From NCBI GenBank assembly GCA_916048055.1, contig CAJZHL010000003.1:62001-126000 (forward strand): DNA of 64,000 bases. Reading direction: 5' to 3'. The number at the start of each line of letters is the position of its first letter. The stretch's first letter is position 1. A model generated the notes under the pieces. The model made no database searches. It had not been told where the DNA came from and was given only the letters and a program-made list of their open reading frames with translations. The translations under genes and the position numbers were made by a program. The stretch is from Pedinophyceae sp. YPF-701. Taxonomy: Eukaryota > Chlorophyta > Pedinophyceae. Below, in pieces: positions 225 through 45,374 of the stretch.

Positions 225-3200
225 GGAGAGAGGGGGGAGGAGGGACTACGGTGGGGACGACAGGGACGGCCGGCGCCACAGAGATCATCGCGACCACAGG
301 TTGGCGCCTGGAGTCGTGCTGCGGTGCACCAGAACGTCGAAATGCGTCGCATCCCGAACGCGAACCGCCCCTCTCTCAGCTCCGACGGACAAAAATAGAG
401 CGTAACATCATGTTTCCGAGCACAACATGCTGTGCGTGGCTCCGTTCTCGCGACCTGACGAGCTCCCTGGCGCACCGTCTTGCAGGAGGGACGACCGTCG
501 GCGCAGGGACGACAGGCGCGAGCGGCCGTACTCGCGGGACCGCTCGCCCGAGCGCAAGCCCGACGTGGCCCCGCCGCCCCTGCCCGGCGGGCCTCCCGCG
601 CGCCCGCCGGACGCCCCCCTCAACGGCACCAGCGCGGTGAAGAAGGAGCCCGTCGCGCTGGAGGAGATGCTCAAGAAGAAGCAGGAGGAGATGCAGAAAG
701 GCGAGTCCGCGACGGCCGCGAGCGCCGCTCCGCTCCGCCGCCGCAACCCCCCCCGCCAACACACACCATGCGGCGACCGCTGGGCTGGTCTGACGCCGGC
801 GTGCCTCGTCCGGTGCCGCACGCAGCCGCCCGGCCGGTCTTCCTGAGCAAGAAGGAGCGCGAGGCGCTCGCTCTGAAGCGGCGCGAGGAGCAGGTCCAGG
901 CCCAGCGGGGGGCCATGGAGGCCACCCTGCAGCAGCAGCGGGAGGCGTTCCAGGAGCAGCAGCGGCGGTTCGAGGAGGCGCGCGCTGCGGCGTACGGGTG
1001 CGTGCGGCGCCTGGCCGCTGCGGGCGTCGACGGCTCAGCTGGCGGCGGCACTGGGTCGTGACGCTCTACGTCGCTGCGCTGCGCTGTTCGCAGGTCGGCG
1101 AACGCGCGGGAGGTGGCGCTGGGCGACGACGCGCGCATGAAGGACCAGGTGATGGATCAGATCCGCAAGCAGTACCTCGGCGCGGAGCGCACCAAGCGCA
1201 AGGTGGTGCATCCTGCGGAGCGCATGAAGCGCGGACAGGAGTGGGACATGGAGGACGACACGCTCGCGGAGGCGAACCCGCTGATCGACGCGCCTGAACG
1301 CGACGTGGGGCTCCTGTTCGGCCGCGGCATGCGCGCAGGTGCTGCACACGCGCAAGCACTTGCAACCAACGGCTGCGGCAGCGCGGGCGCCCTGCGCGGC
1401 CTGCAACCCCCCGCAGCCTCCCACGTCGTCGCTCCTGCCAGCGATCTGAGCGCACCGCTGCGCAGTCTCGTTCGTTTCGCCTTCGCGCTGCTGTTGCCCC
1501 AGCCGGCCGCGCACGCCGCCCCGCTTCCATCCGGCGCAGGCATCGACCGGTCGGAGCAGCGCCGCGCCGGGGAGCGCGCGCAGGCGGAGGTCCTCCGCAA
1601 GTACCGCTCGGAGCGGGAGATGGAGGACCTGCAGCGGCTGTCGCGGCGCGACCGCATTGCGGACAAGGAGCAGGCGATCAAGAAGGGCAAGCACTGGTCG
1701 GAGAAGGCGCTGGAGGAGATGGCGGAGCGCGACTGGCGCATCTTCATGGAGGACTTCAGCATTAGCTACAAGGGCAAGAACCCGGCGCGGCCGATGCGGT
1801 CGTGGGACGAGATGAGCGCGCCGGCGTTCGTGCGGCGCGCGATCGACCGTCTCGGGTTCGCGAAGCCCTCCCCGATCCAGATGGCCTCGATCCCCGTGGG
1901 CCTGTCGATGCGCGACGTGATTGGCATCGCCGAGACGGGGTCCGGGAAGACGTGCGCGTTCATGGTGCCGCTGCTGAACTACATCGCGAAGCTGCCGGAG
2001 ATGACGGACGAGGTGGCGGTGCACGGGCCGTACGGGCTGGTCATGGCGCCCACGCGCGAGCTGGCGCAGCAGATCGAGGAGGAGGGCCGCAAGCTGATGC
2101 ACTACACGGCGTACCGCGTGACGAGCGTGGTGGGCGGGCAGAGCATCGACGAGCAGGCGACGGCGCTGCGGCGCGGCTGCGAGATCGTGATCGCCACGCC
2201 CGGGCGGCTCCTCGACTGCCTGGAGCGCCGGTACTGCGTGCTCAACCAGTGCAACTTCATCGTGCTCGACGAGGCGGACCGCATGATCGACCTCGGGTTC
2301 GAACCCCAGGTCATCGGGGTCATGGACGCCATGCCGAACTCCACCCTCAAGGTAACTGACACGCCGCACACAGATCACTCCCCCCCCTCTGGATCCGCTG
2401 GCTCTACCTCCAGCTCGCGCAGGTTTGTCCGCACAAGCGCCGCGTCGTCCGCGGTGGGGCTCTTGCGGACCCTTGCGGTGACCGTGCGCGCACGGGATGG
2501 ACGGTTCTCACGCGCGCTGTTCGCGTTGCGGTGCTGCTGCAGCCGGAGGACGAGGCGCAGGCGCAGGCGCTGGCGCAGCGCGACTCGGCGCGCGGGGGCG
2601 CGCCACAGTACCGCGTGACGTTCATGTTCTCGGCGACGATGCGTCCGGAGGTCGAGCGGCTTGCGCGGAAGTACCTGCGCAACCCCGTGGTGGTGACGAT
2701 CGCGAGCGCGGGCCAGGCGGGCGAGAACATCACGCAGGTGGTGCGCATGTGCAAGCACAACGAGAAGGAGCGGCTCCTGGTGAGCGCGCTCGCCGAGGTG
2801 GGCGGCGGCAAGACGATCGTCTTCGTCAACACGCAGAAGTCCTGCGACATCGTCTCGCGCATCATCGAGCGCAACGGCTACCCGTGCTGCGTCCTGCACG
2901 GCGGCAAGGCCCAGGACCAGCGCGAGGAGAGCCTCAACGGGTTCCGCGCGGGCGAGTTCACGTGCCTCGTCGCCACGAACGTCGCGGGGCGCGGCATCGA
3001 CGTCCCGGACGTCGCGCTGGTCGTCAACTACGAGATGCCCAGCAAGATTGAGGACTACACGCACCGCATCGGGCGGACGGGGCGCGCGGGGAAGAAGGGC
3101 ACCGCGGTCACCTTCCTCACGGCCGACGACGCCGGCGTGTTCTACGACCTCCGCAAGTTCCTCAAGTCGTCCAACGCCAACGTCCCCGCCGAGCTCGCGC

Positions 3201-3250
3201 GCCACGAGGCCTCGCGCGCGCAGCCGGGCGCGCTCGAGCAGATCCGGTAG
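225..3250 (+). CDS. DDX23: DEAD-box RNA helicase of the U5 snRNP, PRP28/DDX23 family
   Basis: ATP-dependent helicase that in other eukaryotes swaps U1 for U6 at the 5' splice site during spliceosome activation in the nucleus. Exons supported by splice sites and phase: 225-299, 486-700, 826-997, 1094-1338, 1540-2351, 2543-3250. The N-terminus is an Arg/Asp/Ser-rich tail, followed by a coiled Lys/Glu segment, then the helicase core. Visible motifs are AETGSGKT (Walker A), [25 protein letters not shown] and [10 protein letters not shown]. The [10 protein letters not shown] block before the core is specific to this family. The 701-825 intron has a GC donor (AAAG/GCGAGT). The first coding exon is not resolved: an exon ending in phase 2 must lie upstream of 225, perhaps outside the window. 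About 740 residues are visible, close to the family length. Family assignment is very secure. Confidence 0.93.
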
Positions 3251-3342
3251 CGCGCCAGTGTGAGCCAAACCGACGCCCGCTCTCGCCGGAGGGTCACAGG
3301 CGCCGGGCGCGCGATACGGTGCTGCTGCGTAACGAATGTGGG

Positions 3343-4091: not shown

Positions 4092-4556
4092 CCTCGCCTG
4101 CGCTCTCCTCCCCTCAAGCGCGCCCGAATCCGTCCCGACGGTTCGCGAGTGCCTGCGTCTATCCTCCACGTGGTCGCTGTTGCATCGAGAATGCTGCGCG
4201 GGCCCCGGCGGCCCGCCCCGAAGCGCGGCGGTCCTCGTCACAGCCGGCCGCAGTCAGCACCATGTCCGACCTGACGCAGCCCTGACAGCACCGGCCAGGG
4301 ACACCTCGCCCGCAGCAACGGCGACCAGCTGCGCAGGTCCGGACCGACTCACACGCTTCGGCACGCGGCGTGCAGCCCACCGAAGACAGCAACAACCCGT
4401 GGTTCAGAAACCACCACAGCAGGTCTGCTGCTCCGCCGCACCCGCTTCAACTCCGCACCGCCGGCTTCCCGCTCCGACCCGCGCCCTGCTGCCACCTCCA
4501 ACCCCTCATTCGACGAACAGACAATCAAATACCAACCAGTGTCTGTGTGTGGGTCT
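4092..4556. other. Intergenic gap upstream of DR1
   Basis: This gap lies between the DR1 start and the 3' end of the VPS2 gene, both on the minus strand. It should hold the DR1 promoter and VPS2 terminator. I see no coding exon, RNA gene or repeat in it. Confidence 0.5.
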
Positions 4557-5699
4557 TCACCCCTTCCGGATGTTGTTGAGGCGGTTCTTCAGGTCGTCGT
4601 CCGGCGGGAGGTCCGGGAGGTTGTCCGCGCCACCCGCGCCCGCGCCCACGCCCGCCGCCACGCGCTGCGGCGCAGCAGCCACGGACTGCTTCGGCGCAGG
4701 TGTGCTGGCGAGCATCACGTCCATGTCCAGCCCGATCTCGTCGAGCACCTGCCCCACCAGCTCGTCCGTCTCCTCCTCCTCGTCCTGCGGGCGCTGGCGG
4801 CGACGCGCGTGGGCCCGCCGCGCGCTGGCGTGAGTGTGCGTAAGTGCGTGCGTGTGCGGGGGCGGGTGGGCACCTCGTCGGCGAAGGCGTCGTCGAGCGC
4901 GTCGCCCATCATGTCCTCGGCCATCTCCATGCGCTCGTTCTGCTTCTCGAACTCCTTCATGATGCCGTTGAGCGCCGGCACGTTGAGCTGCCGGTTCATC
5001 ACGCTCATGGCCTTGGTCGCCCCGCGCATGGCCTGCGCCATGCTCTGCGTCGACTTGAGCGTCTGGATGCGCAGGGAGATGCCCTGGAGGTGGCTCTTCA
5101 GGTGGTGCAGCTTGGTCACCGCCTTGCGGTTCCGAATCATCGACTTGGCCATCACCTTCACCGCGTCCATCTGGCCCTGCTTCGCCATCCGCTTGATCTC
5201 CACCACCAGCTTCTTCTCCTGGTTCTGCAGCCCCGTGCGCTCGCGGTCGATGTCGCGGATCGACCTGCGACGGCCAGGGCGCGGGGGAGGGTCGCGCCGG
5301 GGCCGTGCGCGCGACGCGACGCCTCCTGGCGCGACGGCGCTGCCGCGCGGACACGAAGCTGCTCCGACAAGAGCGCAGCGGTCCCCGCGGGGCGCCCCGT
5401 GGCCCAGGGACCGCGGGCCGCGGGGGCCGCGGGCGCGGAGCTTGGACCCGGGAGCAATCTGTCAATGTGCCACCGTGCGCGCAGGCCTCGCTCTGGAACC
5501 GCGCGTCCCGAACAACCGTGTGTGGTTGCACCGGGGAGTGCGGTCCGCTGGGGGATCGATGCGGCGCGCAAGGAGGAGGGGGCGCACGAGAGGACGTGCG
5601 GGCGGGGACGGGGCGCGCGTGCCTGTCGAGGAGACGCTTGTTCTCCCGCAGTATCTCTGCGGGAGTCTTCTTCTTCCCTAGAAGCCACTCGAGCGGCAT
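4557..5699 (-). CDS. CHMP2A: ESCRT-III subunit VPS2 / CHMP2A
   Basis: Snf7-family ESCRT-III protein that polymerises on endosomal and other membranes for inward budding and scission, and recruits VPS4. Exons: 5623-5699, 4874-5264, 4557-4784. The N-terminal helix MPLEWLLGKKKTPAE and the core blocks KKLVVEIKRMAKQGQMDAVKV and IQTLKSTQSMAQAM (shown as landmarks) are diagnostic. The C-terminus ends in the MIM1 helix LKNRLNNIRKG that binds the VPS4 MIT domain. The first intron has a GC donor (GACAG/GCACGC). Joining there gives LLDR-SIRDIDRER, aligning without a gap to other CHMP2A proteins, so the non-canonical site is well supported. The second intron interrupts just before an acidic DEEEETDELVGQVLDE segment. 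Length is about 230 residues, normal for the family. Confidence 0.93.
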   Translation of the reverse strand: MPLEWLLGKKKTPAEILRENKRLLDRHARPVPARTSSRAPPPPCAPHRSPSGPHSPVQPHTVVRDARFQSEACAHGGTLTDCSRVQAPRPRPPRPAVPGPRGAPRGPLRSCRSSFVSARQRRRARRRRVARTAPARPSPAPWPSQVDPRHRPRAHGAAEPGEEAGGGDQADGEAGPDGRGEGDGQVDDSEPQGGDQAAPPEEPPPGHLPAHPDAQVDAEHGAGHARGDQGHERDEPAAQRAGAQRHHEGVREAERAHGDGRGHDGRRARRRLRRRGAHPPPHTHALTHTHASARRAHARRRQRPQDEEEETDELVGQVLDEIGLDMDVMLASTPAPKQSVAAAPQRVAAGVGAGAGGADNLPDLPPDDDLKNRLNNIRKG

Positions 5700-6408: not shown

Positions 6409-7655
6409 ATGTCGACCGACGGGCTCAAGCAGGCAGGGAAGTACCTTCGGTGGGCGAAGGAGCGGCAGGACGTGCACTGCGACGAGGTGGCGGGCCATGT
6501 GCGGGACTTCCTAGCCACGCAGCTGCGCCCGGGCGAGTTCTACTCCACCGAGGAGGCCAAGGAGCTCCTCGGCGAGCTCGAGGGGAGCCTGCGCGACGCC
6601 GTGCGGCAGGAGATCCGGCACGTCCAGCTCGTCGCCGCGAACCTTGCCCGGAAACTCGTCGACGGCGCGAAGGACGCCGGCGCGACCGTCGAGGTCGACA
6701 CCGTAGGCACGGCCCCCCGCTGCGCCCCAGCGCGCGCCGCCGCACCGCGCGCGCACGCGTCCGGGCGCCGTCCCGTCGCCGCGGCTCGACAAACAAACAC
6801 GCGCGCACAGTGCCCGCCGCCCGCACGCAGGCCTGGAGGACGAGGCCGCGATCAACGAGCTCAAGTGGGAGGAGCAGGCCAGCTCCGACGCGCCGCCCGC
6901 GGTCGGGCTCCCGGCCGCCGCCAGCAAGGACCCCCCCCCGCGCGTGGCCGACCCCGACGTGTCCCGTCGCGTCGCCGAGCTCACCGCGCAGCTGGACAGG
7001 GCGCGGCTCGAGGAGACGAACACCCGCGAGGCGCTCGAGCGAGCGCGCCGCGACGCGGCCGCCTTGCGTGAGCAGATCGAGCACGAGCGGCAGGCGCGGC
7101 GCGCTGTGGACAACACGCGCCCGGGGGGGCTCCCGCCGCTCGGGGGCGCGCTGCCGCCTGTGCGCGGCGCGGCGCAGGGCGGCGGGGAGGAGGAGGGGTC
7201 GCTGGTGTTGCTGGAGCGCGTGGCGAAGCTGGAGCGAACGAACGAGGAGCTGGGGAGGAAGCTGGTGGCGGCGCGCGCGGAGGCGAGCAAGGCGAGGGCG
7301 GACGCGGAGCAGGCGGAGCAGAAGGTGCGGGGGTGGGGGAGATGCACGCTGGAGATACATGCGCGGAGCCGAGCGGTGTCGTCGACCGGAGCTGCGCTAT
7401 GACGTAACAGTAGTCGTGACGTTTGCGGGGTGACGGGGCGTCCGCGTGCTGTGGCGGTGCTTGCAGGTGCAAGGGGCCAACTTCACGGCGGCGCGCACCG
7501 CGGGCCGCGCGGAGCGGAGTGCGGAGGCCAGGGTGCAGGACAGCAAGCAGTTCCAGCAGCTGAAGCAGCTGATGCAGAAGAAGAGCCAGGAGGTCATCGA
7601 GCTGCGGAAGCGGCTGCAGAAGTACGAGCCCGACATCGTGCCGACCGCGGACTGA
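6409..7655 (+). CDS. LZTFL1: LZTFL1 / BBS17-like coiled-coil protein (BBSome regulator)
   Basis: In animals and Chlamydomonas this protein binds the BBSome and controls its exit from cilia. Exons: 6409-6702, about 6839-7324, 7467-7655. The N-terminal part (KYLRWAKERQDVHCDEVAGH, then FYSTEEAKELLGELEGSLRD) matches the LZTFL1 N-terminal domain. The middle is heptad-rich coiled coil. The end is the diagnostic FQQLKQLMQKKSQEVIELRK followed by RLQKYEPD, which aligns with the extreme C-terminus of human LZTFL1. The acceptor of intron 1 is chosen by phase: the obvious CAG at 6830 breaks the frame, the AG at 6838 keeps it. Presence of this gene implies a ciliated cell. The alternative is a generic coiled-coil protein, but the C-terminal match makes that unlikely. 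Confidence 0.85.
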
Positions 7656-15916: not shown

Positions 15917-16009
15917 GCCGGCCACGCCCGTCACGCAGTGGTTCCCCGCCGCGCGGCGGCCGCACAGGCAGGTGTGGTGGCGCGCTGCGGCCGTGCCAGT
16001 TCCCGGGCG

Positions 16010-17087: not shown

Positions 17088-20000
17088 ATGCCGGGGCGCT
17101 CCCACGGCGTTCCGGCGGCCCTGCGCGCCGTCCTGTGCGCCCTCGCGTGCCTCTGCGCCCTGCCATTCGCGCGCGCGCAGGCCACGACGCCGCCCGCCAC
17201 GACCCCCGTTGAGACGACGGTGCCGCTCGCTACCACCCAGCCCCCCTCTGGCTTCACCGTGCCGCCCACCAACTGCGGACCGCACAACTTCTGCCCCGTG
17301 GGGTCGGTCTACGTCGGCGTGTCCGACTCGGCGTCGCGCTGCTTCGGCCTGCGGACCATCGAGGGCCTCGAGCTGGGCTGCCTGAAGCGCAAGATCGACA
17401 GCGATGTAGCGTGCACCTGCTGCGAGCCCTGGTTCGGCGCGGTGAGGCCCGCGCTCGCCGCCGCGCTGCCCCGCTGCGATGCACATGTACTCAGGACCTC
17501 GGCCGGCACGCAATACCTCGCTCCCGCGCGCACCCGTCGTCGTGGTCGCGCCGCTCCTTGCACCCGCAAGTCAATGCACGCGGCCCCTGCACGTGAGCGC
17601 GCGGTTCCGCGTGCGTCTCGACCGCCCCTCGAGCCGCCGCGCAGCCGTGTCGCTCGGCGATCTGTGCCCGTCGCGGACCGCGCTGTCGCCGCCGTCGCGG
17701 CGCCCCCCGCCGTTGCACAGTGCCATGTTGCGAGGAGCACGTCCCCGACGCCCCGCTCCCGCCGGCCCCGCCCTCGCAGGGCTGTGCCCTGACGGGCGTC
17801 GTGCAGGTCACGTCCCCGGCGAGAGATGCGACCCCGAGCCCGCAGCGAGTGGGCACCTGTCCTGTCAGTGAGCCTGAGGGCCGCTGCTCGGAAGTGCCGA
17901 CTCTCGCGCTGGACCGGACGCTCACGAGCATCGGCGTCATCAACGCCCGGCTCTCGTTCGGCAGGCGCGCGCCCGCTCCGTGCCCCGCCCGAGCGCGACC
18001 GCTATTCGATAGGCGCGCGCGCCCGCAGGCACGCCGCCGCACGCGCACTCACGGTCCCGCGCGCCCGCGTCGCTCCGCAGGCGCATGGTTGCGACGGCCG
18101 CGACGAACAGCAACGCCACGCTGGAGTTCCCCGGCCTGTTCGGCAACCCCAGCATCATCGAGAGGGTGTCCGACTTCTTCTATACCACCGTGGATCCCGC
18201 GACGCGCGTCGCGGTCACGAGGCGCGCGGACACCTTCCCGGAGCTCGCGCGCGGCCCCGAGGAGTTCGACGAGTTCGGGTTCACCATCCGCTTCCGGCAA
18301 AACACCCCGGGGGTCACCTCGCTGCTCCTCCCCCCCGGGTCCTTCCGCGAGCCGCCGGCGCCCGGGATCCGCAACCCGGAGCTCGGGTCCGTCCGGTACT
18401 CGCACGGGTCGCTCTCGGAGGGGCTCGAGTATGACAACCGTGGCCCGAACGTGGTGATCACGACGGACGCGTCGGTGGTGGCGGGGGTGACGACGGAGGA
18501 CACGGTGAAGCTGCAGGCGGAGGTGTCGCAGGCGTGCTTCGGGTGGGACTGGTCCAAGGTGGAGGTGGCGGGCGGGCGGGTCGCGCTGGCGTCGCCGCTG
18601 CTGCGCAACGAGCTGGACGGAGCGGCGTCGTTCTCGCTCTCCGTCACGTTCGACAGGGTGCGTCTCGTTGCCGCCTCCCTGTGCGCCGTGCGGAGCGAGG
18701 CGCGGGCGCTGCCCTGTGCGAGGTTTGGTTGCCGAGACGAGGTCTTCTCCACGTGTCGTGTTGTGTCGTGCGCTGCAGAGGGGTGGGACGATCTCCGTGG
18801 TGATTCCGGCGGGGCAGTGCCGGTCGGCTTCGGGTCTGATCTCGCAGCGGGCCGAGACGAGCGTGCGGAACTCGCCGCGGTGGTCGCGCAACGCCGCCGT
18901 CGCCGGAACCACTGCTGCCGCGACTGCGGTGGGCACCGCGGTCGCGAGCTCCATCATCGCGGGCTCGGTGGGGTCCTCGATGTCCGGGGGCATGGCGACC
19001 GGCGGCGCCGCTGGGGCGATGGGCGCTCAGGCGGGCTCCGCGGCCGGCACGGCCAGTCCCGCAGCGATGGCAAACACGGTGCAGGCGAGCACGGTGGCGC
19101 TGCTGGGGCACGTGCAGTTCTTCTCGCTGTTCGGTGGGATGCAGACGCCCATGCCGGAGGGATTCAGGTCCTTCGCGGAGGGTCTGAGGTGGACTCAGCT
19201 CGCGCTGAAAGCCCCGTGGGCAAAGTCGGACGACGCGGGCGCCGAGGCGCTGCAGGGGACGACGCAGCCGGGGCGGCGGGGCGCGCAGGAGCAAGGCGCA
19301 CTGTGGACGCAGGAGGCGGCAGAGATCAAGGCACGCCCCGCTCGTTGCCGCTGCATTGACGCACCGTTGTTTCACACCGCAGGCAACGTCGAGAGCTCAA
19401 GGCCCGCGGCGGCGTGCCCTCTGTTTCCGCAGGACGCTGTAGACGACCTTCTTGAGGATCCGTGGAACCTGGTCATCGTGACGATGGCGTACGCGGCGCT
19501 GGTGGTCGTCGCAGTGGCCATCATCCGCGCCATTGCACTGGCCATCTACACTCGCATCCAGGTCAAGAAGCTGATCCGCATGGCGCCCGAGCCCGAGCCC
19601 GAGCCCGTCGAGGAGGGAGAGGCCGCGGAGGAGGGAGAGGCCCCCCGGAAGCGCGCCCTGCTCCCCGCGCCGACGCACATGCGGCGTGAGAAGGAGATCG
19701 CGCAGACGCTGCTGCTGATGGAGCAGGCCCACGCGGAGCGCGCCGCGAAGCAGCGGAAGATCAGGGCGGAGCGCGAGCGGGCGCTGAGCCTCAGGCGGCG
19801 GACCGTGCAGGAGACGGAGGGAGACACCCCCCAGGCGGTGGTGTTCCGGAAGGCGCCGTCGTGGCTGCTGTTCCCGAAGCCGGAGATCATGACGTACGCG
19901 ATCACGACGGCGGGCGTCGCGTCGGCGGGCGCGCGGCTGGCCGCGGAGGGCGGCTGGGTGGAGATTGTGGTGGGCACGGCGATCGTGCTGGTGTGGTGCG

Positions 20001-26973: not shown

Positions 26974-28601
26974 TTATGCAGTGTTGGCGGGCCACCTGTC
27001 GCTGGCACCGTTGGCACCCTCTCCGCCCACCTCGTAGGTCGCGAACGTGGCCTCCTTGGAGCTGCCGCCGCGGGCCGGCCGCTTGCTGTTCCCGAAGCAG
27101 CACCATCCGTTCTTCTTCGCCAGCACCAGGAAGACCACCAGCGCCACGAAGGCCAGCACGCCGATCACGATGCCCGCGATGGCACCGGCCATCACGGCCG
27201 CGGAGCCCGAGGACGAGCCGTCGGAAACCACGCTGCCGTCGGGCAGGGTGATGGTCGACGACTGGATGGCCGTGTTGCCCGAGGGGCGGGAGCCCACCGC
27301 CGCCTCCAGCGCGGCCGCCACCGACACAACGTTCAGGTCCAGCTTGACTGCACGGGAGGAACGGGGCACGGATCGACGCCGTTGAGGACCGAGCACACTG
27401 CTGACGGATCGGCGCGCACCGCGGGCGAGCGCTGCGCACCGCGAGGTCGAGGCGACAGGGGGGGTGTGTCGCGCACCTGCTTCCAGGCGCTGCAGGCTCG
27501 GGGACACGACGACGATGGTCACGATGTAGTCGTCGACGGTCTGGAGCTTGCGGCGCGTGAGCTCGACGATGGTGACGGTCGCCACGTCGCCGGCCGCGGG
27601 GTTGAGGGTGGCTCCGATGAGGGCGCTCAGGGCGTCCTCCATGTCCGGGATGCGCGTCGCGGGGTTCAGGTTGGTGGGGAAGTCCAGGCGGATGATCGTG
27701 CGCAGCGTGAGCTCCGAGGTGATGGCGAAGTCGCGGAGCGCGGTGTTGCCCGAGGGGCGCGTGCCGACCGTGTCCTCGATGGCGGTGGCCACGGACGACA
27801 CCGTCAGCGAGCTCTGGACTGCAGGGGGCGACGCGCGCAACGCAGACGTGTGAGAGACTTGCAGGGACGCCGGCACGGCCCGCGAGCGATCGGACCGCGG
27901 GCCATCTGCTCGCCGTGGCCGCGAGCGCAGCCTCGGGCGCACAAGGACACCCCGCGCACACATGGTGTCGACCGGGGGCGTGGCGTAGCCGATCGTCGGC
28001 AGCCGCGGCGGCGGTCGAGGCGGCGGCGGCGCTGTTTGCGGGCGTGGCGCGGTCGGCGGGGCGGGGCGCTTGCCTGCCGCGAGGCGCGTGCGGTCCGTGG
28101 AGGTGACGGAGAGGGTGGCAACGTAGTCGTCAGCCTCCCGGCCGGCCTGCTGCAGGGCGCGGCGGCGCAGGAGCTCCACGACCTTGACGTACACGGTGTC
28201 GCCCGCGGAGGTGTCGATGAGGGGCCCCACGAAGGTCTCGAGACCCTCGCGGATCTTGGGAATGGCAGATAGCGTGTTGAGGTTCTCCGTGAAGTCGAGG
28301 CGGATAGTGCCCGTGAGCGCGAACTGCGGGCGCGGGGCGCGGGCAGGGGAGCGGTGAGGCCCGTGGGCGGCGCGGCGGGGGGCAGAATCGTCGTCGGATG
28401 TGGCGCGTGGCGGCCACGCGACGTGGGAGATGAGGCTGTGAGGCGGAGGCGGCGGGCGCGAGGCGGCGCGGTGGGGCGGGGGCGCACCGTGGTGGTCGAG
28501 TTCTGGGCGTGCGAGGCACCGAAGAGGGCGCAGAGGATGGTCAGGAGCAGGAGCGGCATGGCGCCGATGCGGGCCCAGGCCCCGCGCGTGACAGAGCTCA
28601 T
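26974..28601 (-). CDS. Single-pass membrane protein with two tandem copies of an unknown ~115-residue domain
   Basis: Family not recognised. Exons on the minus strand: 28488-28601, 28074-28323, 27477-27818, 26974-27347, all in phase. Exon 1 encodes a signal peptide (MPLLLLTILCALFGASHA). Two extracellular repeats follow. Each starts IRLDF.(T)NLN, continues through a GD-V/T-V...VVEL/IVEL.RRKL strand and DDY(V/I)(A/V)T(L/I), and closes with VATAIEDTVGTRPSGNTA or VAAALEAAVGSRPSGNTA. The last intron falls at the same place in repeat 2 as the previous one does in repeat 1, with the same phase, as expected from exon-pair duplication. A transmembrane helix (IAGIVIGVLAFVALVVFLVL) and a short basic, Cys-containing cytosolic tail end the protein. 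The intron at 28073 has a GC donor (GGCAG/GCAAGC). Fold may be SEA-like, but this is a guess. Confidence 0.82.
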
Positions 28602-30148: not shown

Positions 30149-32075
30149 ATGTCGTGCGCCACGGCGTCCGCCTCCGGCATGCGCTGCCTCGGCATCAAGG
30201 CCACCCCGGCGCCCGCGCGCGCGAGGGCCGCGGCGGTGCGCCCCTGCCCCCCCACCGGGCCAACTGCGTGCTGTGCAGCGACCGTGGCGATCGCCGCGCC
30301 CAGGGAGACCGCGCCGCCTCCCGCAGGCCACGAATGTCATCGTAGACTCGTGCTGTATGCCCGCACAGCGGCTGCCGCCGTGCGTCCCCGCACTGCCTGG
30401 TCGCGAGCACCACCAACTCACCCCGTCATCCTACGTGCCCCGGTGCTCGCCTGGCAGGTCGTTGCCCGCGCTGGGGCGACCGAGGGACCCGAGCTGAGCG
30501 CCTCTAGGCGCGAGGCCCTCGCATCCTTCTCGCTGGCGCCCCTCGCCGCGGCTCTGGCGGCCCAGGCAAGTCGAGGCCCGCCTCCTGCAGTGATATATCG
30601 CCGCTGAACGACTCCATCGACCTCTGTTTCCGACTCTCGAGCCGTTCGCGTGCAGCTCGCTGTGTGTCTCCCGCTATCGATGACGTTCGCTGATCTGTTC
30701 CCGGGCCAGGAGCGCACATCGCGGAAGCTGATGGCTGCGAGCAGTTCGGTCCATCCACCGGTGCCGCGGGGACGGTGCCCGCGCCCGCCGCTTTCCTTGC
30801 GCGCTGCGCACTACAGATGAGCGACAACGTGCTGTGCGCCCGCTCCGATCCAGCGCGGCCCTCTCCTGGCCCCCTCGGGCCCAGCACCTGAGGAGCCAAA
30901 CTTGCGCTCGATGCGGCGCCGTTGCGACGCGACGCGGCCTCGCTCGTGTCCGCAGGGCTCCTTCCCCGGCGTCGCAGCGGCGGTGGACGCTGGGTGGGAG
31001 TTGTACCAGGGCAAGGACCTCCCGGCGTCGTCATACGGGGGCTACGGCGGCAACGCCAACGAGAGCCCCGTGTACTCGTTCGAGTACCCCGCGGACTGGA
31101 AGATCCAGGTCCCCGGGAAGGTGCGCACTCTGACGTGCCGAACGCCCTGCCGCGAGCTTCCAGGAAGGCTCTCATCGGCATCGTCGCAGAGCTGCGCGCA
31201 CAAGGCCGATGCGCGGTCACTCGTCTGTCTGTGCGCTGGCGGTCCCCCCCGAGGACAGCGTCAGCAGCGTCGCGCATGAGGCGCCCCTGCCGGGCAACGC
31301 ACGTCGCTGCGCCTTTCCACAGCGACCACCCGCACAGCGCCCGCACACTGCAACTTGGCCGCTTCGCGAGCCCTGGGAAGCACCGCGTGCGACAGGGACG
31401 CGTGAGCCCTTTCAGCCACGTTGCCGTGCGCTGCCGGTCCGGAACGACTGTTTTCGGAGGTGTCCTCGGGCGCTGAGGCACTTCCAAGCGCCCACAGCCG
31501 AGCGTTTGCACGTGGCAGAAGGCGACGCGTAGCGGCCGGCCGGCCGCATGCACACGAAGCCTCCCTGACCCCTGTTCGAGGCCGGCCCGTGCACGTGCGC
31601 GGCACTCGTGAGCTGTTTTCTGACCACCATTGTTGGCGTTCGCGGCGCCGCTGCGCAGATCGACAAGGGCACGAAGGGCATCGACGCGCGCGTCGTGTCG
31701 CCGTCGAAGGGCGAGCGCATCATCGTGGTGACGTTCGGGCGCGCGGGGGAGTCGATCGGGTACAACCTGGGGGACATTGACTCGACCTTCTCGGGGCTCG
31801 CCGGCGCCGACTCGGACCTCCAGGACGCCCTGAACGACGCCGACGACATCATCAAGGGCGAGCGCGAGGCCGGCGGGCGCAAGTTCCTCGACGTGGAGAT
31901 CGTCGCCCCCTCGGTGCGCTTCGTGACCAGCATCACCACGTCGCGCGGCAAGGTGTACGCCATCCTCGCGCGGTGTCCCAACGACAAGTCGTGGAAGCAG
32001 GAGGAGCCGCGCCTCCGCAAGGCCGTCGAGAGCTTCACCATCCTCGACGACACCCGGGCCAAGGGCTACGCGTAG
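30149..32075 (+). CDS. PsbP-family thylakoid lumen protein with twin-arginine transit signal
   Basis: The N-terminus (MSCATASASGMRCLGIKATP) is a typical Ala/Ser/Arg-rich plastid transit peptide. It is followed by SASRREALASFSLAPLAAAL, a twin-arginine thylakoid-transfer domain, so the mature protein should be in the thylakoid lumen. Exons: about 30149-30565 (possibly with an internal intron), 30956-31120, 31659-32075. The mature part shows YSFEYPADWKIQ, then GIDARVVSPSKGERIIVVTF, FLDVEIVAPSVRFVTSITTS and KGKVYAILARCP-like strands, ending LRKAVESFTI, the PsbP fold signature. The 30566-30955 intron starts GCAAGT, a GC donor with otherwise perfect consensus. Whether it is an oxygen-evolving PsbP or a PPD/PPL assembly factor cannot be decided. 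Confidence 0.83.
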
Positions 32076-35300: not shown

Positions 35301-38300
35301 CGGTCACCAAGGTGCCCGCGGAGAACTCCAGCGGGGACAGCCGCAGGCCGACCCTGCACAATCATGCTCGGGGGGTGTGAGGGCGGGGTGAGGGCGCCGC
35401 GACGCGCGAGGTGGACGGGCGTTGCGAGTCATCGGCGGGGCGTCCACGTACCCTGTCGACCGGGGCATGTCGACGAATCCTGCGGGCACGACGAGGACCG
35501 AGGGCACGATGCGCACGATGAAGGGCGTCCAGGGCCAGCGCCCGTCCTGCGTGCTCCCGCTGTCATCATCCCCCCTCTTCCTGGTATGTAGCCTGGCCTT
35601 CATCGGCACGTCTACGCTCTTGCCCCCGGCGGCGCACGACCACATGATGTACTCCATCTTGACGAAGTTCAGACCGTCAATGGTGACCTTCCGCTTCCTC
35701 ATCATCTTCGCAAGATCGAACGCCTGCAGACACCCTCCAGAGATGTGCGTCGGCCACGTTCGCGGCGGAACGGTGACGCCGCGCGCGACGAGGCCGACGA
35801 AGCGAGCACAACACAACATCCCGCGGACGCACAGCACCAACCAACGAGCAAACAGGCCACGCAGCGCGCACCACGACCGTGCTGGTACCCTCCTCGGCCT
35901 GCGTTTCCGTCTGCGTCTGCGCGCTGAGCTCCGACGCCAGCTCCAACCCCAGGTTGGGGAGGGACTCGAGGGTCCACGTGTTGTTCCCGGCCACGTCGCG
36001 CAGGCCCGCGGCCACGGGCACCCTCCTGTAGTCCTTGACCTCGATCACCGACCTCTCGCCCTCGACCCGCCACGTCCCGCCCTCAGAGCTCACGCAGTAC
36101 GCCGTGTGCGCCACCCCAGGCTTGAGCGTCAGGCCCTCCAGCGTGCCGCGCAGCACCTTCGCGCCGTCCTCGTACTCCACCGTCACCTCGACGTCCGCGT
36201 GGACCTCCGCGATGCCGTTCTGCGGGACGCCGCCCACGCGGATGTCCGCGAGCGTGGCCTCCAGGTGGTCCCCCGCGGGCACCACCGTCAGGTTGTAGGC
36301 CGCGTCGAACGACGCCACCTGCGCCTGCTCCGCGTCGGCGCCCTTGAGCGTGAGGTCGATGTTCTTCACGGCCATGTCGAACGGCCCGTGGTCGTCATAC
36401 GCGCGCCCCGAAAGGTCGCACAGCCGCAGGTGCAGCACCACGTTCGTCCCCACGTGCACCACGGAGCTGTTGCCGCCCATCTGCACCTCCACGCGGTCCC
36501 CGAGCCCCGCCTGCCGCATCACGACGCCGAACTCCGCGCTGCACCCCTCCGCGGCCTCCCCGCCCCCGCCCGCGTGCGGCAGCGCGTCCAGCACCAGCGT
36601 CGCCGTGGCGTCAAACGCGCCCACATGACTCGTGTCGAGCTCCCCCGGGCCCAGCTCCGGAAGCGGGAACCAGCCGTCCGCGTCGACGTCGATCTCGCCG
36701 GTCGTGAAGCTGAACGACCGCGTGACCCCCTCGCGCTCCCCGCGCGGGCGCACCGTCAGCTCCACGCGGTCAAACACGCTGCTCTCGTGCAGGAGGTCCG
36801 CGCGCGTCACGTGCCGCCCCGTCGCGTACTCCAGGCGCGCGTACAGCCCGGTGACGGTCTCTGCGATGTGCGAGCGGGACGAGAAAGGAGGACCACGTCT
36901 CGGGGCGGGCAAGCGACACCGCAGCAGAGCTCACGCGGGGGGCAGTGGGGGCGGGGGGCGGGTCGCAACGCACCTCCCGGGACGAAGCGGACCGGTGTGC
37001 TGGAGTCGAGCACCTCGGTCGCACCGTCGCAGGTCGCGCGCGCCACGAGCCGCACGGGCAGCGGGCGCAGCTCCACAGGCAGGTGCTTGGTGACGAACAC
37101 GCTGGACCCCGCGCTCTGCTTGACGCGCCTTCCGGTGGTGGGCGCGTTCTTCGCCTCGAACAGGAGCGTGATGCGCTCCCACGGGTACCTGCGGCGGAAG
37201 GAGCAGCGCGGAGACGGCCGCTTTCAACTCGCGGCCATGTTTTCGGCGCTGCGGTGCGTGCGAGCGAGGGACCGGGACGCTCGCGTACCGGTACGGCTGG
37301 ATGTTTGCGCGCGCCGCCTCGTTCCGAATCTGCGGCTTGTAGTGCCCGGGGACCAGCGCCGAGGGAGGGAACACCTTCATGGGGCTCTCGCGGCGGAACA
37401 GGTCCGGGCGCGCGGCGTCGCCCGCGAGCGGGTCCTCGAGCCGCGCCTTGTTCTCTCCGAGCAGGTCGTCGCCCTCCCGCCCGTGCGGCACGACGTACGC
37501 CAGCGCCTTGATCTTGCTGGGCTTGATCTTGCGCGCCTGGCCCGCGAACCCCACCACCGTGCGGCCGACGACCTTGGCCGGGAGGACGTTGATCGTGGAC
37601 GTCGCCTCCTCGTGCTTCTGCAGCGCGCGCTCGTCCTCGACCCACTCCCGCTCCAGCTCCTCCTCGAGTTGGCGCACCTCGGCCTCCTCGATGCCCGACA
37701 CCAGCACCAGCCGCTCCTCGCCGTCGTCGTCGACGAGCACGTAGTCCCCGGCCATGAGAACGAGCCAGCGCACGCGCGCCTCCAGGCTCTTCGGCGTCAG
37801 CTTCCTCTTCTTGCCCCCGCGCGCGTCCGGGACCAGCATGCGCACCATGTACGCCTCCACGTTGTCGACGTGGTCCCCGGACAGGCGCACCACCTGCCCG
37901 ACGCCCAGCTTGCTCAGGTTCTCCGCCGTGAAGTCCCCGCGCCCCACGTACTTGCCGATGTCGCCCTCCAGCGCGCCAAAGGGGGGGTCCGGGCCCGACA
38001 GCGGGTTCAGCACGGTCAGGTCCTGCGCCGAGACCTCCGCGACGGTGCTGCTCCGGTCCTGCTCGTTCGTGTTCGGGTTCACGCTCAGGGCCTCCGCGGC
38101 CAGGCGGCTGCTGTGGCACACCGCGCCTCCCGCCAGCCGCAGCTTGCCCGACACCTCGACGTCCTCCTCGTGGATCGAGACGATGCGGAAGCTCATCTTT
38201 GATCCCGCGTCGCCGTCCCCGGCGTCGCTCACGCCCGCGGGCAGCTCGTCCGCGGGGCGCACCAGCGACTGGTGGTTCCACACGCCCGAGCGCAGGAGAC

Positions 38301-41300
38301 GGGCGTCGAACGCGATGTTGCCCGGGGCCATACGGAACCGGACCTTCTCGCACACGGCCTTGACCTCTGCGAGCGGAGCCACGGGGCGGCCGGGGGCTCG
38401 GCGAATGGTCAGCACAGCGCGGTGTCACGCCGTCAGGGACGCCTCCGGGCCGTGCACGCGACGCTCGGGCTCGCTCGGGCGCACCTATGGGGTCGACGTG
38501 TCGCTCCGCTTTCCTGGGGATGATCTTGAAGCAGAACTCGATGCGGTCCTCCTGAGCCAGCCGCACGGTGTCGTCGAACTGCACCCCGTGGAGCTCAATA
38601 TCCATGCACCCCTCGTCCTCGTCCTCCTCGTCGCCGTACACCACGGCAGGGGGCGCTGCGAGGTGCACACGCGCAGCGCCGCACGAGTGAGTGGCTCGGG
38701 CGTCGCACGGCGACAGCGTGGGAGGGGCTGGCGCGCGTTGGCGCGCACCTGTCCGCAGGAGCGCCGGCTTGCACGACGTAGCGATCAGCTTGACGCGGTC
38801 CTCGTCGTCCGCGCGGGGCAGCAGGACGGGCACGTAGTTGTCGTTCCCCTCAAAGTCGACCTGCAGTCTGAACCGCATGATCAGCCGGTCGTCCGCGTTG
38901 ATGACGTAGCGCTCGCCCCGGGCGCACTCCGTGCCGTCCTGCCTCGTGATGTTCTCCACCACCATCTTCGCCTGCGGCGCAGCGTTCGAGACAACAAGCC
39001 ACGTTGTTCAGACGCGCAGCCCCGTGCATGCACGACGTGCAGACGTCCGGGCGACTCGGAACGCACGACACGGACGTGACCCCCCTGGGTGTGCCACTCA
39101 CCACGTCGCCGTGCTTCGCGAGGTCGAACTTCTGCGTCTCCACCTGGACTTCGAGCGGAGGACCGACGAGGCGGGGGGGCACCTTCTGCCCCGGCGCCGC
39201 CACGCCGAACGCGACCTCGTGCTTCCCGCACTTGAGCTGCCTCAGCGGCGGGACGCGCTGCAGCGCCGTGTCCTTCAGGACGATCATGAGCTCCTTGTGA
39301 TCGACGCCCTTCTTCCTGAAGGACTCGAACTCGAACCTGCGGCGGCAGCGGCGGCGACGGTGACCGGACTGAGCGCAGGAGAACGGTGGACAGGGGCGCG
39401 CGCGCGTCAACAGGGCGTCAGCCCTCACTGGTGGCCGGAGGTCCAGGGGCGCTCACCCGTACTCGGTGTCCCTGAGGGCGCACGGCTCGCCGTCGACGAT
39501 CACGGCGACCTTGACCATCTCGAGCATCTTCAGCAGCCACACGCCCGCGCCACTGTCCGGCAGGTCGAGGTCCCCCTTCACCAGCCGCGCGCCCGAGACC
39601 ACCTTGGCGCGCCGCAGGCACAGGTACCTCGCCGGCGCGTTCCGGGTCCCGAGTTTGGCGAACTCGATCGCCTGTTGCTGCGCGATTGTTACGTGCCCGT
39701 TCCCCTGCAGCTTCGGCACGTCGCCCGACTTCTTGGACAGCGCCAGCTGCAGCGTGGGCAGCTCGTTCAGCGCCACCGTGTAGTTCTCGAGGTCCTCCAT
39801 GGTGGGCGGGCGCAGCGCGGAGTAGCACAGCTGGTTGTCGTCCGCCAGCACCACCGTGTACGTCTGGGGCTTCCGCAAGCAGCGGTCCGCGAGGAGCTGC
39901 GCAGCCTCTTGCGTCAGGCGCATCTGGCGCTTCTTGCCGTCCGCGACGACCTCGACCCTGTCCTGGCCGTCGCCGGGCAGCAGCAGCGCGAGTTTGACCA
40001 CGACCTTCATGACCTTCCGGCGCCCCGTGTCCACGTCCCTCTCCTCCGCGTGCAGCAGGCGGAAGATGGGCTGCGTGCCCTTGCCGTCGCCGGCGAAGAG
40101 CGCGGCGAGGTCCGCGTCGTCGTTGCTCGCGCCGTCCTTGAGCGAGAGCACGACCTCCGACCCAACATTGAACGTGGCGCTCGTCTTGCTGTACTTGACC
40201 AGCGCGCCCTGAACCACGCGCACCGACTCGTTCCGCTCGATGCACTGCGGGCACGACCGGCTCGGGGTGGAAAAAGCGGTGAGCGCACCCACACGCCGTG
40301 GGGGGTGCTGCACCCTGCGGGCAGACCCTCGGCCGCGGGCTGGATGGCAGGACGGCGCGGAAGCAGCGCACGGCAAGCTCTCGTCCCACCGAGTGCACGC
40401 AGCGGTCACGCGGCGCCGCCTGTGGGCGGCACGAACAGACAGCCCCCCCCCGTACCTTGCGCACGAACTCCGCCATCACCTCCGCGGTCTTGTTCTTGGG
40501 CCCCGCGAGCGCGTGCTCGATCTTCGTCTTGATCAGCTGGTTGATGTCCGCGGCGTGCACCTTGGTCGTCTCCAGGCCCGTCTTGTGGTCGTTCACCGGC
40601 ACCGCGCCCGTCGCCAGCAGCACGCACCGCAGCGCGTTCTCGCGCCCCCCGCACGCCGTGCCGAGCCTGTCGAGCGCCTTGCCCAGCTCGAGCGTGTCCG
40701 CCCGCATCGCCACGCCCTCCCACACCACCTGGCACAGGCGGTCCGCCATCAGCCCGCACCCCGCGCGCCGCCGCTCCTCCAGGACCCTCGGCAGCAGCGC
40801 GTACGGCGTCGGGCGCGCCGCGTGCATGTTGCTCGCCTCCCGCAGCGACACCTCGTCGTCGTCGCTGTCGTCCAGCAGCTCGATCGACGCCGCCGGCGCT
40901 GCGTCGTCCGCGCCCCCGAACAGCACCAGCAGGAACGCCTGGATGCTCTCCTCGCCCGCCGCCGCGCCGCCCTGGTCCGCGCGCGCCTTCTTCGCGGGCC
41001 CCGGCACGCCGCGCACGCGGTGGTCGACCTCGAAGTCCAGCAGCAGCGGCGCCAGCGCCTCGCAGCGGTGCAGCATGCGCATGATGTAGCCCTCCTCCGC
41101 GAGCTCCCCGAGGTCCCACCGCCGCTGCTGCGCGCCCTCGTGCTGCCACACCAGCGAGCACGCCACCGTCGGGCGGTCCGACCCGGGCTTGCTCCGGCTC
41201 TCGAGCAGGAACGACGCGAAGGCCTCCGCGTGCCGCTTGGCCTCCTCGCGCGGGGAGCGCCCCCGCCCGCCGTACGCCGACGCGCCCGCGACGAACTCCT

Positions 41301-43425
41301 CGTTGAAGACCACGTCCATCTTCTCCTCCAGCAGCGCCGCCAGCTTGTCCACCGGCACGAGGTACATGAAGTTGAGGTTGGCCAGGATGCACGCCAGGTC
41401 CTCCAGGGCCACGGAGACGCGGTCGGAGTGGTTCGGAATGCAGTCGTACTCCGGCCGGTTCCACAGGAGCGGCTTGCGCGTGACGCGGCCCTCGGCGTCG
41501 ACCTCGCCGTCGATCTTGAGGTTGTGCAGGCGCATGGTGGTCCCGTGCTCCGACGTGGCGATGAGGTGCTTCCGCATCTCGTCGCTGCGCAGCGGACGCT
41601 TCGAGGGGTGCTCTCTCTCGGCGCCGCGCGGCGCGTACAGCGTGCACTCCCCGCCCGTGTACGTCCCCTCGCCCTCTGCGCCGCAACACAATCACACAAA
41701 CGCTTTGATGCAGGGTCGTCGTCGTGCGACCGCGCCACGCAGCGACGGGCGAGCGGGGCGCGCGTGCGGGGCGGCGGCACACACTCAGGCGCGCGCTCAC
41801 CTCCCCAGGCGGTCCCCTTGAGCGGGAACGACCAGGCCTTGCAGTCGGCGCGGAAGAAGGAGTTGGTGAGGGTGCCGCCCATGCCGGCGCGCGAGATCTG
41901 CCCGGTCATCATGTCCTGGAAGCGCTTGGGCTGCCGCACGCTGACGTCCTTCCGGCGGTTGCTCCCGGACCCCACGGTGTACATGTTGCGGTCGATGTCG
42001 TCGTAGGTCATGCCCTCGCCGTTGTCGCGGATCTCGATCCACGGCTTCCCGTCCTCCTTGTCGCACGTCTCCACGCGGATCTCGATCATCGGCATGAACT
42101 CCGACTCATGCAGGATCGTCCCGGGCGCCATCGCGTTCATGCACGCCTGCACCGGCGGCACCGGGACGCGGCGCACGGGTCGGCGACGACGGGCCGCCGC
42201 AGCGCGCCCGCACGGCCTCCCCGCGTCTCGCCGCACCGGGGGCGTCGCGGCGCTGCAGACCGGGGCGCACCTGGATGGAGTTGTGCAGCTTCTCCTGCAG
42301 CGCCGTCGCCTCGTTGTAGTTGTCCGCGAGGCTCTCCTCGTGCCTCTCCGCGAACCGCGGCACGATGATCTCGTACGTGCCGACGTCCAGCTTGCTGAAC
42401 CGCAGCTGCGAACCAACACACAACGGGCGGCGCCGTCGCAAGTGCACGAGTGACGCTCTCACGGCCGTTCGCGCCCCCGCAGAACGCGCCGGAAGAACCG
42501 CGGCCCGGTGCGACGCGCACTGCGTCCATGCGCTTCCCCGCCTCTCACCTGCCGGTCCAGGCCCGCGCCGTCCAGCACGCCGCCCACTGGAGTCTTGAGC
42601 ACCGACCTGCGGAACCGGGGGGCACTGCCCGCCGCCAGCTCCTCGAAGTAGGCCTCCAGGTCCGTCACGACCCTGCCCTTGAGCGTCTGGAGGTCGCCCA
42701 GGTCACTCGCAGTCAGCTCCGCGAGCTGCACGCGGCGGCACGCGCACAGACGCGCACGTGTGAGCAGCACGCTGGCGTTCCCGTCGAGGGGGGGCGCGCC
42801 GACTCGCTCCAGCGCGCGCGGTGGCTCGGTGCCTCGCGAGAACGGTCTCGCGGGGGCGCGCGAGGCAGCGCGGGCGGGACCGTCGCGCCCCGCGCAACCT
42901 AACTCGCTGGGTGCGGGCAGCCGTTTCCGCCCGCAGAACGGCCGACATACGCCCGCGCAAGTCCCCAGCATCGAAGCCAGATGTAATACGATGCGGCGGG
43001 GCCCGCCTCGACGCGTGGCGCACCTCGGGGCATGAGCTCCGGTAGGCGTTGAGGAATTGGTCCTTCAGGGCGTCCACCGTCGGGACCGGGCGCGTGTCCT
43101 CCGTAACGACGATGCTCCCCTGCTTCTGTGTCGACAGGTGGCCCTTTCTGCTCGGCGGCAGGATCCACACCGCGTGCACGAGCTCCCCGGGCAGGTGACC
43201 GTTGCCCCCACCATCGTCCTCCGCGGCGCCCAGCGCCGCAGGCCCGGCTGCAGCAGAGGAGTCGGGGCACGCAGAACGCTTGCACCACCGGCATCTCAGA
43301 TCCGGCAGGGACGGAGCGTAGCGGTGCCCGTGCGCGCAGCGGCGAAGCACAGCACGCAGGGCGCGGTGCAAAGCAGCAGGTGGCTCTCCGGGCGTGGCGG
43401 TGAGCCTTCCCGCGATACACGTCAC
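32388..43425 (-). CDS. Very large GHKL-ATPase protein, MORC/SMCHD1 (GMI1)-like
   Basis: About 18 exons span 11 kb: ~43300-43024, 42725-42549, 42405-42271, 42146-41801, 41675-40456, 40244-39457, 39336-39102, 38972-38749, 38655-38485, ~38402-37250, 37188-36974, 36860-35889, 35723-35452, 35353-35212, 35070-34416, 34301-33855, 33718-33003, 32789-32388. This makes roughly 2,800 residues. ATP-binding motifs are EKLHNSIQ (N-box ExxxN), EIRDNGEGMTYDDIDRNMY (DxGxG) and ISRAGMGGTLTNSFF. A transducer-like region with HLIATSEHGTTMRLHNLKID follows. The middle contains repeated beta-sandwich-like blocks. The end carries a poly-Gly tract, a basic KGRGKKKRAG segment and a conserved-looking C-terminal domain that might be a diverged hinge. 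Known relatives act in chromatin silencing or DNA repair. The start codon is not settled, and treating everything as one gene is an inference from strand, spacing and splice sites. Confidence 0.68.
34305..34322. repeat. (CA)9 microsatellite in an intron
   Basis: Nine CA units sit directly upstream (in the minus-strand sense) of the CAG acceptor for exon 34301-33855, so the polypyrimidine tract of this acceptor is a TG repeat. Confidence 0.9.
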
Positions 43426-43964
43426 TGTTTCAGGTAGCCGTATGCGTGAATCGACACGAGGCGCGGATCACGCAGGGAGAACGGCGCGCAGGAGGCGCGC
43501 AGGGCGCGTCGCTCGTCTGCAAGCGGGCCACTCCTCACCGTCCTCGTGCGGCCGTTTTCCGCGGCTCGCGGCCGCCACGGTGGTCATGGCCGAACCTCTC
43601 CTCCTGTGAACTAGCTAATCCGCCGCAGGAGCGATGCGCGGTGCTGCTGCCGAGCGCGCGCTCTCAGTCACTGCCCGCGCAGCTCAAACCGGCGAGGCGG
43701 CCGGTCGCCCCGATGCGCGACAGCGGTCCACAGCTCGACAGCTGTGCGACCGCGGAGTACTAGGCCCCCGCGGCCGCGTCTCCGGGCAGTGAGGCCGCCG
43801 CAGCGGGCCTGGCGAGCCCCCCCCGGCCTGCCCGACCACAGCACTGGAGGGTCCTGCCCGGGGCCCTGAGCGGCTCACAGCCGCGCGCCCGCGGCCGTCG
43901 TGCGCAAACGCGGTCGCGACGTGGGTCTTCTGATATTGCGGAGTGTTCTTGCGCACCGCACAGG
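43426..43964. other. Divergent promoter region, GHKL gene / ISCU
   Basis: About 540 bp. It likely holds the ISCU promoter and the first exon and promoter of the GHKL gene. No TATA element or RNA gene seen. Confidence 0.45.
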
Positions 43965-45374
43965 ATGTTTTCCCTCGCCAATGTGGCCCAGGGGCTGCCG
44001 GCGATCTCGCAGTCCCTGCGGCAGCTCGCGCCGGTCCTGACCCGCGCCTACCACAAGAACGTGAGTGCCCCCCACGCGCCCCACGAAAGCGCTCGCGGGC
44101 AGCGCTGCGGCGGCGTGGGTGCTCCGCGCAAGCCCCCGCCCTGCGCTTGCCACGCGCTGGTGCCGCTGGCGGCCCGCCGCCTGGAACGCAATCGTCGCAC
44201 GGCCAATCTGACCGCCGATCAAGCGGCCGCGAACGCACGTCGTCAGCGGCGCCTGTCGCCGCCGGCGCCGCGTGGGGCGGATGGTAGGGAGCCCTGTGCT
44301 CTCACCGGGCTCCCTACCCGGTCCGGCGCGTTCGTCCGGCCGCGCTCCATCCTGGCCCCTTTCACTGTCGGCGGGCGCCGTTCCGCGCCGCTGACGTGTC
44401 CTGATACGACCTGACGGTTGCGGGAAGCCGTGGAGAGCCAGTCCTCCTAGGAGGCGCGGAAACACCCCTGCGTCAGGGCGCCCTGTCCCCGTTCAGCACG
44501 CGCGTGCTCGTTCGCGTCCTCGCGAACGCGACGAGGCCCGTTTCGGCGCGTCCTCACCGCCCCCGCGCCCGTGCACGCGCGTCCTCCCATCCACGCAGCG
44601 CAGCCCGCCGCGGGCGTCGCGGGGGCCGCGTGGCTCCGTATCCCGCGGCCAGCACACCCGCTCATGCTCCATGGACGCCTCACGAGCGCGCCCATCGACG
44701 TTTCGCGCCGTCACGGCACCTGTCGGCCCACGCTGGCCTCTGTGCGAGGGTGCGGTGCAGGTTCTAGACCACTACGAGAACCCGCGCAATGTCGGCAGCA
44801 TGGACAAGGACGACCCCAACGTCGGGACGGGCCTCGTGGGCGCGCCTGCGTGCGGCGACGTGATGAAGCTGCAGATCAAGGCGCGTGGTCTGCCCGCCGC
44901 AGCGCCGCCACGCCCGCGCGCGCCGAGCGCCGAGCGCGCGCCCGACCTCGCAGCGCGTCCGCCGTTCCTGCAGGTCGACGAGAACGGGAACATCATCGAG
45001 TCGAAGTTCAAGACGTTCGGCTGCGGCTCGGCGATCGCGAGCAGCAGCCTGGCGACCGAGTGGGTCAAGGGCAAGACGATGGAGGAGGTGCGCCCGCAAC
45101 AGTCGAGCCGCGCCCGCCGCTCCACTCGTCACGCGCAGAGCGCTCCCGCGACGCGGGGGGGCAGGCGAGAGAGAGACGCGCGGCCCTGCGTTGGGTGCTT
45201 GTGGTGTTGCAGGTGCTGGAGATCAAGAACAGCGACATCGCGAAGCACCTGAACCTGCCCCCGGTGAAGCTGCACTGCTCGATGCTCGCGGAGGACGCGA
45301 TCAAGGCGGCCGTGAAGAACCTGAACGAGAAGCGCGCCAAGAGCGGCGCGGAGGCGAAGCAGGCCGCCGCGTAG
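43965..45374 (+). CDS. ISCU: Iron-sulfur cluster scaffold ISCU (mitochondrial)
   Basis: Scaffold on which the NFS1 desulfurase complex builds [2Fe-2S] clusters in mitochondria. Exons: 43965-44060, 44761-44880, 44974-45087, 45213-45374. Exon 1 encodes a mitochondrial presequence ending in LTRAYHKN. The conserved core follows: VLDHYENPRNVGSMDKDD, VGAPACGDVMKLQIK (first ligand Cys), FKTFGCGSAIASSSLATEWV (second Cys) and LNLPPVKLHCSMLAEDAI (third Cys, LPPVK chaperone motif). The 44881-44973 intron has a GC donor (AAG/GCGCGT); without it the highly conserved KLQIKVDENGNI would be broken, so this site is firm. That intron is 93 bp and stop-free. Intron 1 (700 bp) contains a strong hairpin. Confidence 0.96.
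44283..44318. repeat. 12-bp perfect hairpin in ISCU intron 1
   Basis: Arms GGTAGGGAGCCC (44283-44294) and GGGCTCCCTACC (44307-44318) are exact reverse complements around a 12-nt loop. Confidence 0.85.

Follow-up and report, generated by a model that had tools for sequence, protein, structure and literature searches.

The window analysed in this study is a 64-kb stretch of DNA (positions 62001-126000 of contig C3, in a genome of 27.9 Mb and 32 contigs), and its subject is the GC-AG introns, those with GC in place of GT at the donor, in the genes that it carries for DDX23/Prp28, VPS2/CHMP2, a coiled-coil-like protein, a membrane protein, a tandem-domain protein, a PsbP-domain protein and ISCU. 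On the evidence of the sequence, from gene models and protein comparisons, these predicted introns look real, at an estimated share near 10% in the window and of about 12% in a 264-kb sample. The G+C content of the window is 70.6%, and that of 200 kb of contig C1 is 69.0%; neither tRNA genes (ARAGORN) nor RNA families (Rfam, gathering scores) were found in the window. An earlier note on this DNA had listed seven GC donors, and all seven were located where it had placed them, each GC directly following AG. A self-trained gene finder without a donor prior called six of them (701, 5622 on the minus strand, 17965, 19331, 28073 on the minus strand, and 44881), and the flank scores of the seven fell at the 72nd-100th percentile of the GT donors of the genome.

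For DDX23, VPS2 and ISCU the junctions had been said to restore conserved protein sequence, which alignments to solved homologues bore out. In detail, the DDX23/Prp28 alignment is ungapped around the junction of the intron at 701..825 (plus strand, AAG/GCGAGT); the VPS2/CHMP2 protein, whose gene carries the intron at 5265..5622 (minus strand, CAG/GCACGC), aligned to a PDB chain with no gap anywhere in the matched stretch; and ISCU, with the intron at 44881..44973 (plus strand, AAG/GCGCGT), aligned to a PDB chain without gaps over the entire matched stretch. The intron of the tandem-domain protein gene (27819..28073, minus strand, CAG/GCAAGC), also called by the finder, restores an internal repeat, gap-free at the junction when compared with the protein's own second repeat. 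Together with the contig C1 junctions described below, phase and conserved protein were kept across nine GC junctions in the homology and repeat comparisons.

Homologue support across the junction was found for none of the other four predicted introns. Two lie in the same membrane-protein gene, at 17965..18080 (plus strand, CAG/GCGCGC) and 19331..19432 (plus strand, AAG/GCACGC), and are indicated by the gene model, with a margin of 10.1 (defined below) for the second, and by their flank scores; the membrane protein gave no Pfam match. The intron of the PsbP-domain gene (30566..30955, plus strand, CAG/GCAAGT, phase 0) was missed by the finder, which skipped the small upstream exon at about 30458-30565. 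By eye this exon encodes a twin-arginine-like targeting stretch joined in phase, and no NCBIfam signal model matched it, so that the candidate intron at 30566 is based on inspection and flank score. The fourth, outside the earlier list, is a gene-model intron at 6707..6830 (plus strand, TAG/GCACGG) in the coiled-coil-like protein gene at 6409-7655, with a flank score at the 9th percentile. Elsewhere in the window, a predicted gene for 2794 amino acids at 32388-43587 on the minus strand has 19 introns, every donor of which is GT.

The finder combined a three-phase coding model with an intron model, took two stretches of DDX23 exon sequence as its seed, required an AG acceptor and allowed any of the 16 dinucleotides as donor from an equal start. 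On the 264-kb sample, composed of the window and C1:1000001-1200000, it converged on 274 introns, with donors GT 220, GC 36, CG 5, AC 4, CT 3, GG 3, TC 1, AG 1 and CC 1. Eight runs, each initially biased to one of eight dinucleotides including GC, ended at 35-38 GC donors, and the other non-GT dinucleotides never exceeded 8. Similarly, after training on GT only, a single open sixteen-way pass gave GC 25, CG 3 and CC 2, and convergence gave GC 37 and CG 4. When the score lost on masking a donor was taken as a per-site margin, and sites with a margin >3 as confident, 195 of 220 GT donors, 27 of 36 GC donors and 0 of 18 others were retained. Confident GC donors thus made up 12.2% (27/222; CI 8.2-17.2%) of the gene-model donors in the sample, with 6/62 in the window and, by subtraction, 21/160 on C1. 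In the window the finder placed 76 introns (GT 66, GC 8, TC 1, CT 1), in agreement with the earlier estimate of roughly 70 introns and near 10 percent GC. The eight GC calls are six of the listed sites, the new donor at 6707, which is among the 6/62 confident ones, and a call at 29129 on the minus strand, which was discarded, as it apparently depends on an exon consisting of the start codon alone.

The features of the 36 GC introns are those of U2-type introns: at the donor, -1 is G in 36/36, -2 is A in 83%, +3 is a purine in 36/36 and +5 is G in 86%. The acceptor, where AG was required by the finder, reads GCAG in 92% of them and in 95% of the 220 GT introns. Median lengths of GC and GT introns were 151 and 146 (p 0.74). 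As the GCAG acceptors show, intron base -4 is nearly fixed as G in the sample.

A gene-model artefact, in which the true donors are nearby GTs and the abundance of GC in such a genome compels the GC calls, would fit with GC being among the commonest dinucleotides. It would also fit the two-way tests, which admitted GT and a single alternative: that alternative won 8-44 introns for nine decoys and 45 for GC. Therefore, the two-way test does not discriminate, and we read its result as decoys replacing barred GC sites. In the sixteen-way competition, however, GC took 36 introns, while CG, GG and CC each took no more than 8 among the open runs listed, despite comparable background shares (0.10-0.17; GC 0.13). 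Further, any in-phase GT lying up to 60 bases from the seven listed sites or from 6707 scored zero or less; one out-of-phase GT was positive, 35 bases into the VPS2 intron, with a score of 0.6. With the ISCU, VPS2 and DDX23 junctions and five on C1 also fitting homologues, the artefact is already largely refuted and we consider it very improbable.

Those five junctions came from the 28 GC introns of C1, 23 of which had a margin >2.5; ten chosen proteins, bearing twelve of these junctions, were tested against Pfam. The five belong to ATP synthase delta, RBBP4/MSI1 (two), COQ4 and an SDR gene. Pfam domains span the junction in ATP synthase delta, COQ4 and the SDR protein, with a net length difference of at most 2, and ATP synthase delta is in addition gap-free against a chloroplast PDB chain. 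A PDB alignment covers both RBBP4/MSI1 junctions; near the second, at a distance of 5-10 residues, it has gaps of one residue each. A PDB search at 1e-28 with the SDR protein was empty, the threshold being probably too strict, and its support is from Pfam only. Six more of the twelve junctions were consistent or uninformative, and the last is taken up below.

The occurrence of GC was found to depend on the rest of the donor. Among strong-flank donors (AG before the cut and G at +5) GC accounted for 24/123, and among the others for 3/99 (p 1.3e-4). At +3, the 27 confident GC donors had A:G at 20:7 against an intronic GCA:GCG of 1146:2684 (odds 6.7, p 3e-6), while the confident GT donors, at 28:155, did not depart from the intronic 148:842 (odds 1.03); among all 36 GC donors the ratio was 21:15. 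By arithmetic on the confident models, C at +2 is depleted relative to the intronic background about 11-fold beside A and about 70-fold beside G, a six-fold difference, and only about 3-fold in the strongest donors (CAG/GCA..). The base at +4 is C, not A, in 13/27 confident GC donors; therefore, they are not only of the tight CAG/GCAAGT form.

The bias to A at +3 could be mutational, if GCG donors decayed to GTG by CpG deamination and GCA donors remained, and the scarce class, GCG, is indeed the CpG one. However, CpG is over-represented in the introns (observed/expected 1.20), C/(C+T) before G is 0.72, and the GT donors stand at the background +3 ratio just given, which make this account quite unlikely. 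A conversion of GT to GC by assembly error is of negligible probability; nothing was found in its favour, and errors that hit a single base in 12% of donors and track both the +3 base and the strength of the flanks would not be credible.

Genome-wide counts of the pattern CAG/XXR..80-110..YGCAG/G, with the reversed pattern as control, showed the same tendency. Such a match pairs a donor with an acceptor and need not be an intron; coding sequence accounts for some of the matches, and one donor may count twice. Matches and reversed controls were 265/82 for GCA, 95/39 for GTA, 741/98 for GTG and 324/283 for GCG; for GTA and GTG the reversed control was the only one. With the acceptor permuted, the control was 83 for GCA and 150 for GCG, so that the two controls agree for GCA (82, 83) and disagree for GCG (283, 150). 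Locally, false acceptor words outnumber the permuted word 1.44-fold, and scaling for this gave an excess of 145 for GCA and 107 for GCG. Within this CAG-donor subset, GC takes about 72-77% of the excess with A at +3 and 6-21% with G at +3. Plain donor 9-mers without an acceptor (613 vs. 469 in the control) were too noisy.

The 5′ end of the U1 small nuclear RNA (snRNA), whose comparison the earlier note had proposed, was canonical (AUACUUACCUG) in the single U1 match, and the single U6 match carried ACAGAGA, likewise with a canonical pairing end; as the snRNA searches score best candidates only, match counts are lower bounds. A second, GC-matched U1, with G for A at position 7 of the 5′ end, or another altered snRNA might be supposed, as the exact ATACTTGCCTG is present once in the genome and such searches could miss a divergent copy. 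The sole ATACTTGCCTG match is, however, a CAG/GCAAGTAT donor read on the opposite strand, by eye within coding sequence for a coiled coil, and a comparison of the surrounding 601 bases with Rfam gave no family at E values up to 1; this candidate was therefore rejected. The single U1 and U6 matches are both canonical, and the same normal U1 end is given for Aureococcus and Micromonas by Iwata and Gotoh (PMC3033335). An altered snRNA is accordingly very improbable, marginally more so than the deamination account. The 601 bases (C3:1489500-1490100) contain two CAG/GCAAGT donors in what by eye is coiled-coil coding sequence.

GC donors might also be kept as deliberately weak, regulated sites of alternative splicing, a role suggested for them in human and C. 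elegans. Consistent with this, confident GC donors are more often in first introns (13/27 vs. 50/195 for GT, p 0.02), a bias reported in human and mouse. Against this, some of the genes concerned, among them those for ISCU, ATP synthase delta, COQ4 and MSI1, have housekeeping functions, a 12% share with closer-than-average flanks looks like tolerance, and first-intron calls are where a gene finder errs most, so that the excess may be a finder effect. We regard this explanation as unlikely, if less so than the other alternatives.

Taken together, what the models and searches show, namely the GC introns and how frequent they are, the influence of the flanks and of +3, and canonical ends of U1 and U6, is probably best explained by a drift of donors from GT to GC in otherwise normal U2-type spliceosomal introns, at sites where the change is offset by other contacts. 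At a G+C of about 70%, mutation or biased conversion would push T at +2 towards C, this AT-to-GC pressure being the presumed driver, and C would be retained where the remaining donor positions bind the machinery well, chiefly through A at +3 but also through G at +5 and the AG that precedes the cut. The splicing machinery itself looks normal, and efficient splicing of these introns would be predicted.

Several observations weigh against this explanation or against single sites. The finder, seeded from DDX23, learned from the very 264-kb sample on which it was then evaluated, none of it being set aside, and its two-way tests let decoys take introns as described. The introns at 17965 and 19331 are gene models without homologue support, and the ISCU donor at 44881 has a margin of only 2.8, which leaves it outside the 6/62 confident ones, although the low margin is settled by the ISCU homology. 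On C1, at least one GC call looks wrong, that at 1037774 (AAG/GCAACC), since the kinase domain that it yields is too short by about 7 positions. Introns with confident GC donors were higher in G+C than those with GT (0.723 vs. 0.691, p 0.025), which favours the explanation, but the difference is weak. The U1 match is barely above the cut-off (70.2 vs. 69.5 bits). In the genome-wide counts, the permuted patterns' own reversed controls exceed their matches (116 vs. 83 for GCA and 247 vs. 150 for GCG), and the GCG excess varies from 41 with the reversed control to 174 with the permuted one, scaling of the latter giving 107. Finally, nearest-neighbour duplex energies with an unmodified U1 were -4.5 for both CAGGCACGC and CAGGCGCGC, -6.3 for CAGGCAAGC and -6.7 for CAGGCGAGC, and -7.1 for CAGGCAAGT and -7.5 for CAGGCGAGT; they are equal or favour G at +3, so the effect of A at +3 is unpredicted and simple U1 pairing does not explain it.

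The preference for A at +3 might be due to pseudouridine in U1, to U6 or to contacts with proteins. Because the U1 pairing energies do not predict it, we tentatively propose, as a possibility short of even chances, that A at +3 licenses C at +2, with the check on +2 falling to a contact formed later or to one with a protein (U6/Prp8 or U1-C), which would read both positions jointly, and that +2 nears neutrality in the strongest donors. The coupling is partly known, since Churbanov et al. (PMC2490688) report a closer consensus fit of GC donors. Its measured one-sidedness between +2 and +3 is the only part that was not found in the accessible parts of the GC-AG literature searched, including PMC3033335, PMC7072748, PMC6310983, PMC2490688, PMC7242645 and PMC3488318.

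In haptophytes the Rubisco small subunit gene is plastid-encoded. Four matches to this subunit were found in the present genome, three at 125.5 bits on contig C19 and one at 51.8 bits on C2, and they are nuclear because both contigs are at least 0.7 Mb. The three on C19, identical in score, lie inside 17 kb (C19:889071-905715), and the weaker one on C2 contains one TGA. A haptophyte lineage was thus rejected, and the matches on large contigs suggest a green-lineage alga as the source. The high use of GC donors, which the earlier note had taken as a haptophyte lineage clue, does not single out haptophytes either, because it is also recorded in the green Micromonas pusilla and Chlorella (PMC3033335).

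The cost of C at +2 can here be read as a function of the neighbouring bases within one genome, and gene finders restricted to GT would miss or distort about 1 in 8 introns. A high GC-AG share has been described before in a small number of GC-rich algae, to which this appears to add one more genome. Iwata and Gotoh (2011, PMC3033335) gave GC-AG shares of 39.6% for Aureococcus anophagefferens, 22.2% for Micromonas pusilla, 7.7% for Chlorella sp. and 2.7% for Micromonas RCC299, linked the share to G+C and termed its cause an enigma. Like these algae, the present one combines a GC-rich genome with a high GC-AG share and GC introns no different in length from GT introns, and, like Aureococcus and both Micromonas, in which the U1 end is normal, it has a canonical U1 5′ end. 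Unlike in that work, the genome is another one with a share in between, and the dependence on +3 and on flanks was measured against the intronic background. The share is about 0.8% in mammals and averages 1.2% in plants (PMC6310983), so that the earlier claim of a level above about 1 percent holds for the 264 kb, at roughly ten times the plant share. As in mammalian and plant GC-AG introns, the flanks are U2-type, with the closer consensus fit around C that is described for mammals (Churbanov et al., PMC2490688); unlike in those systems, 13/27 confident GC donors carry C at +4.

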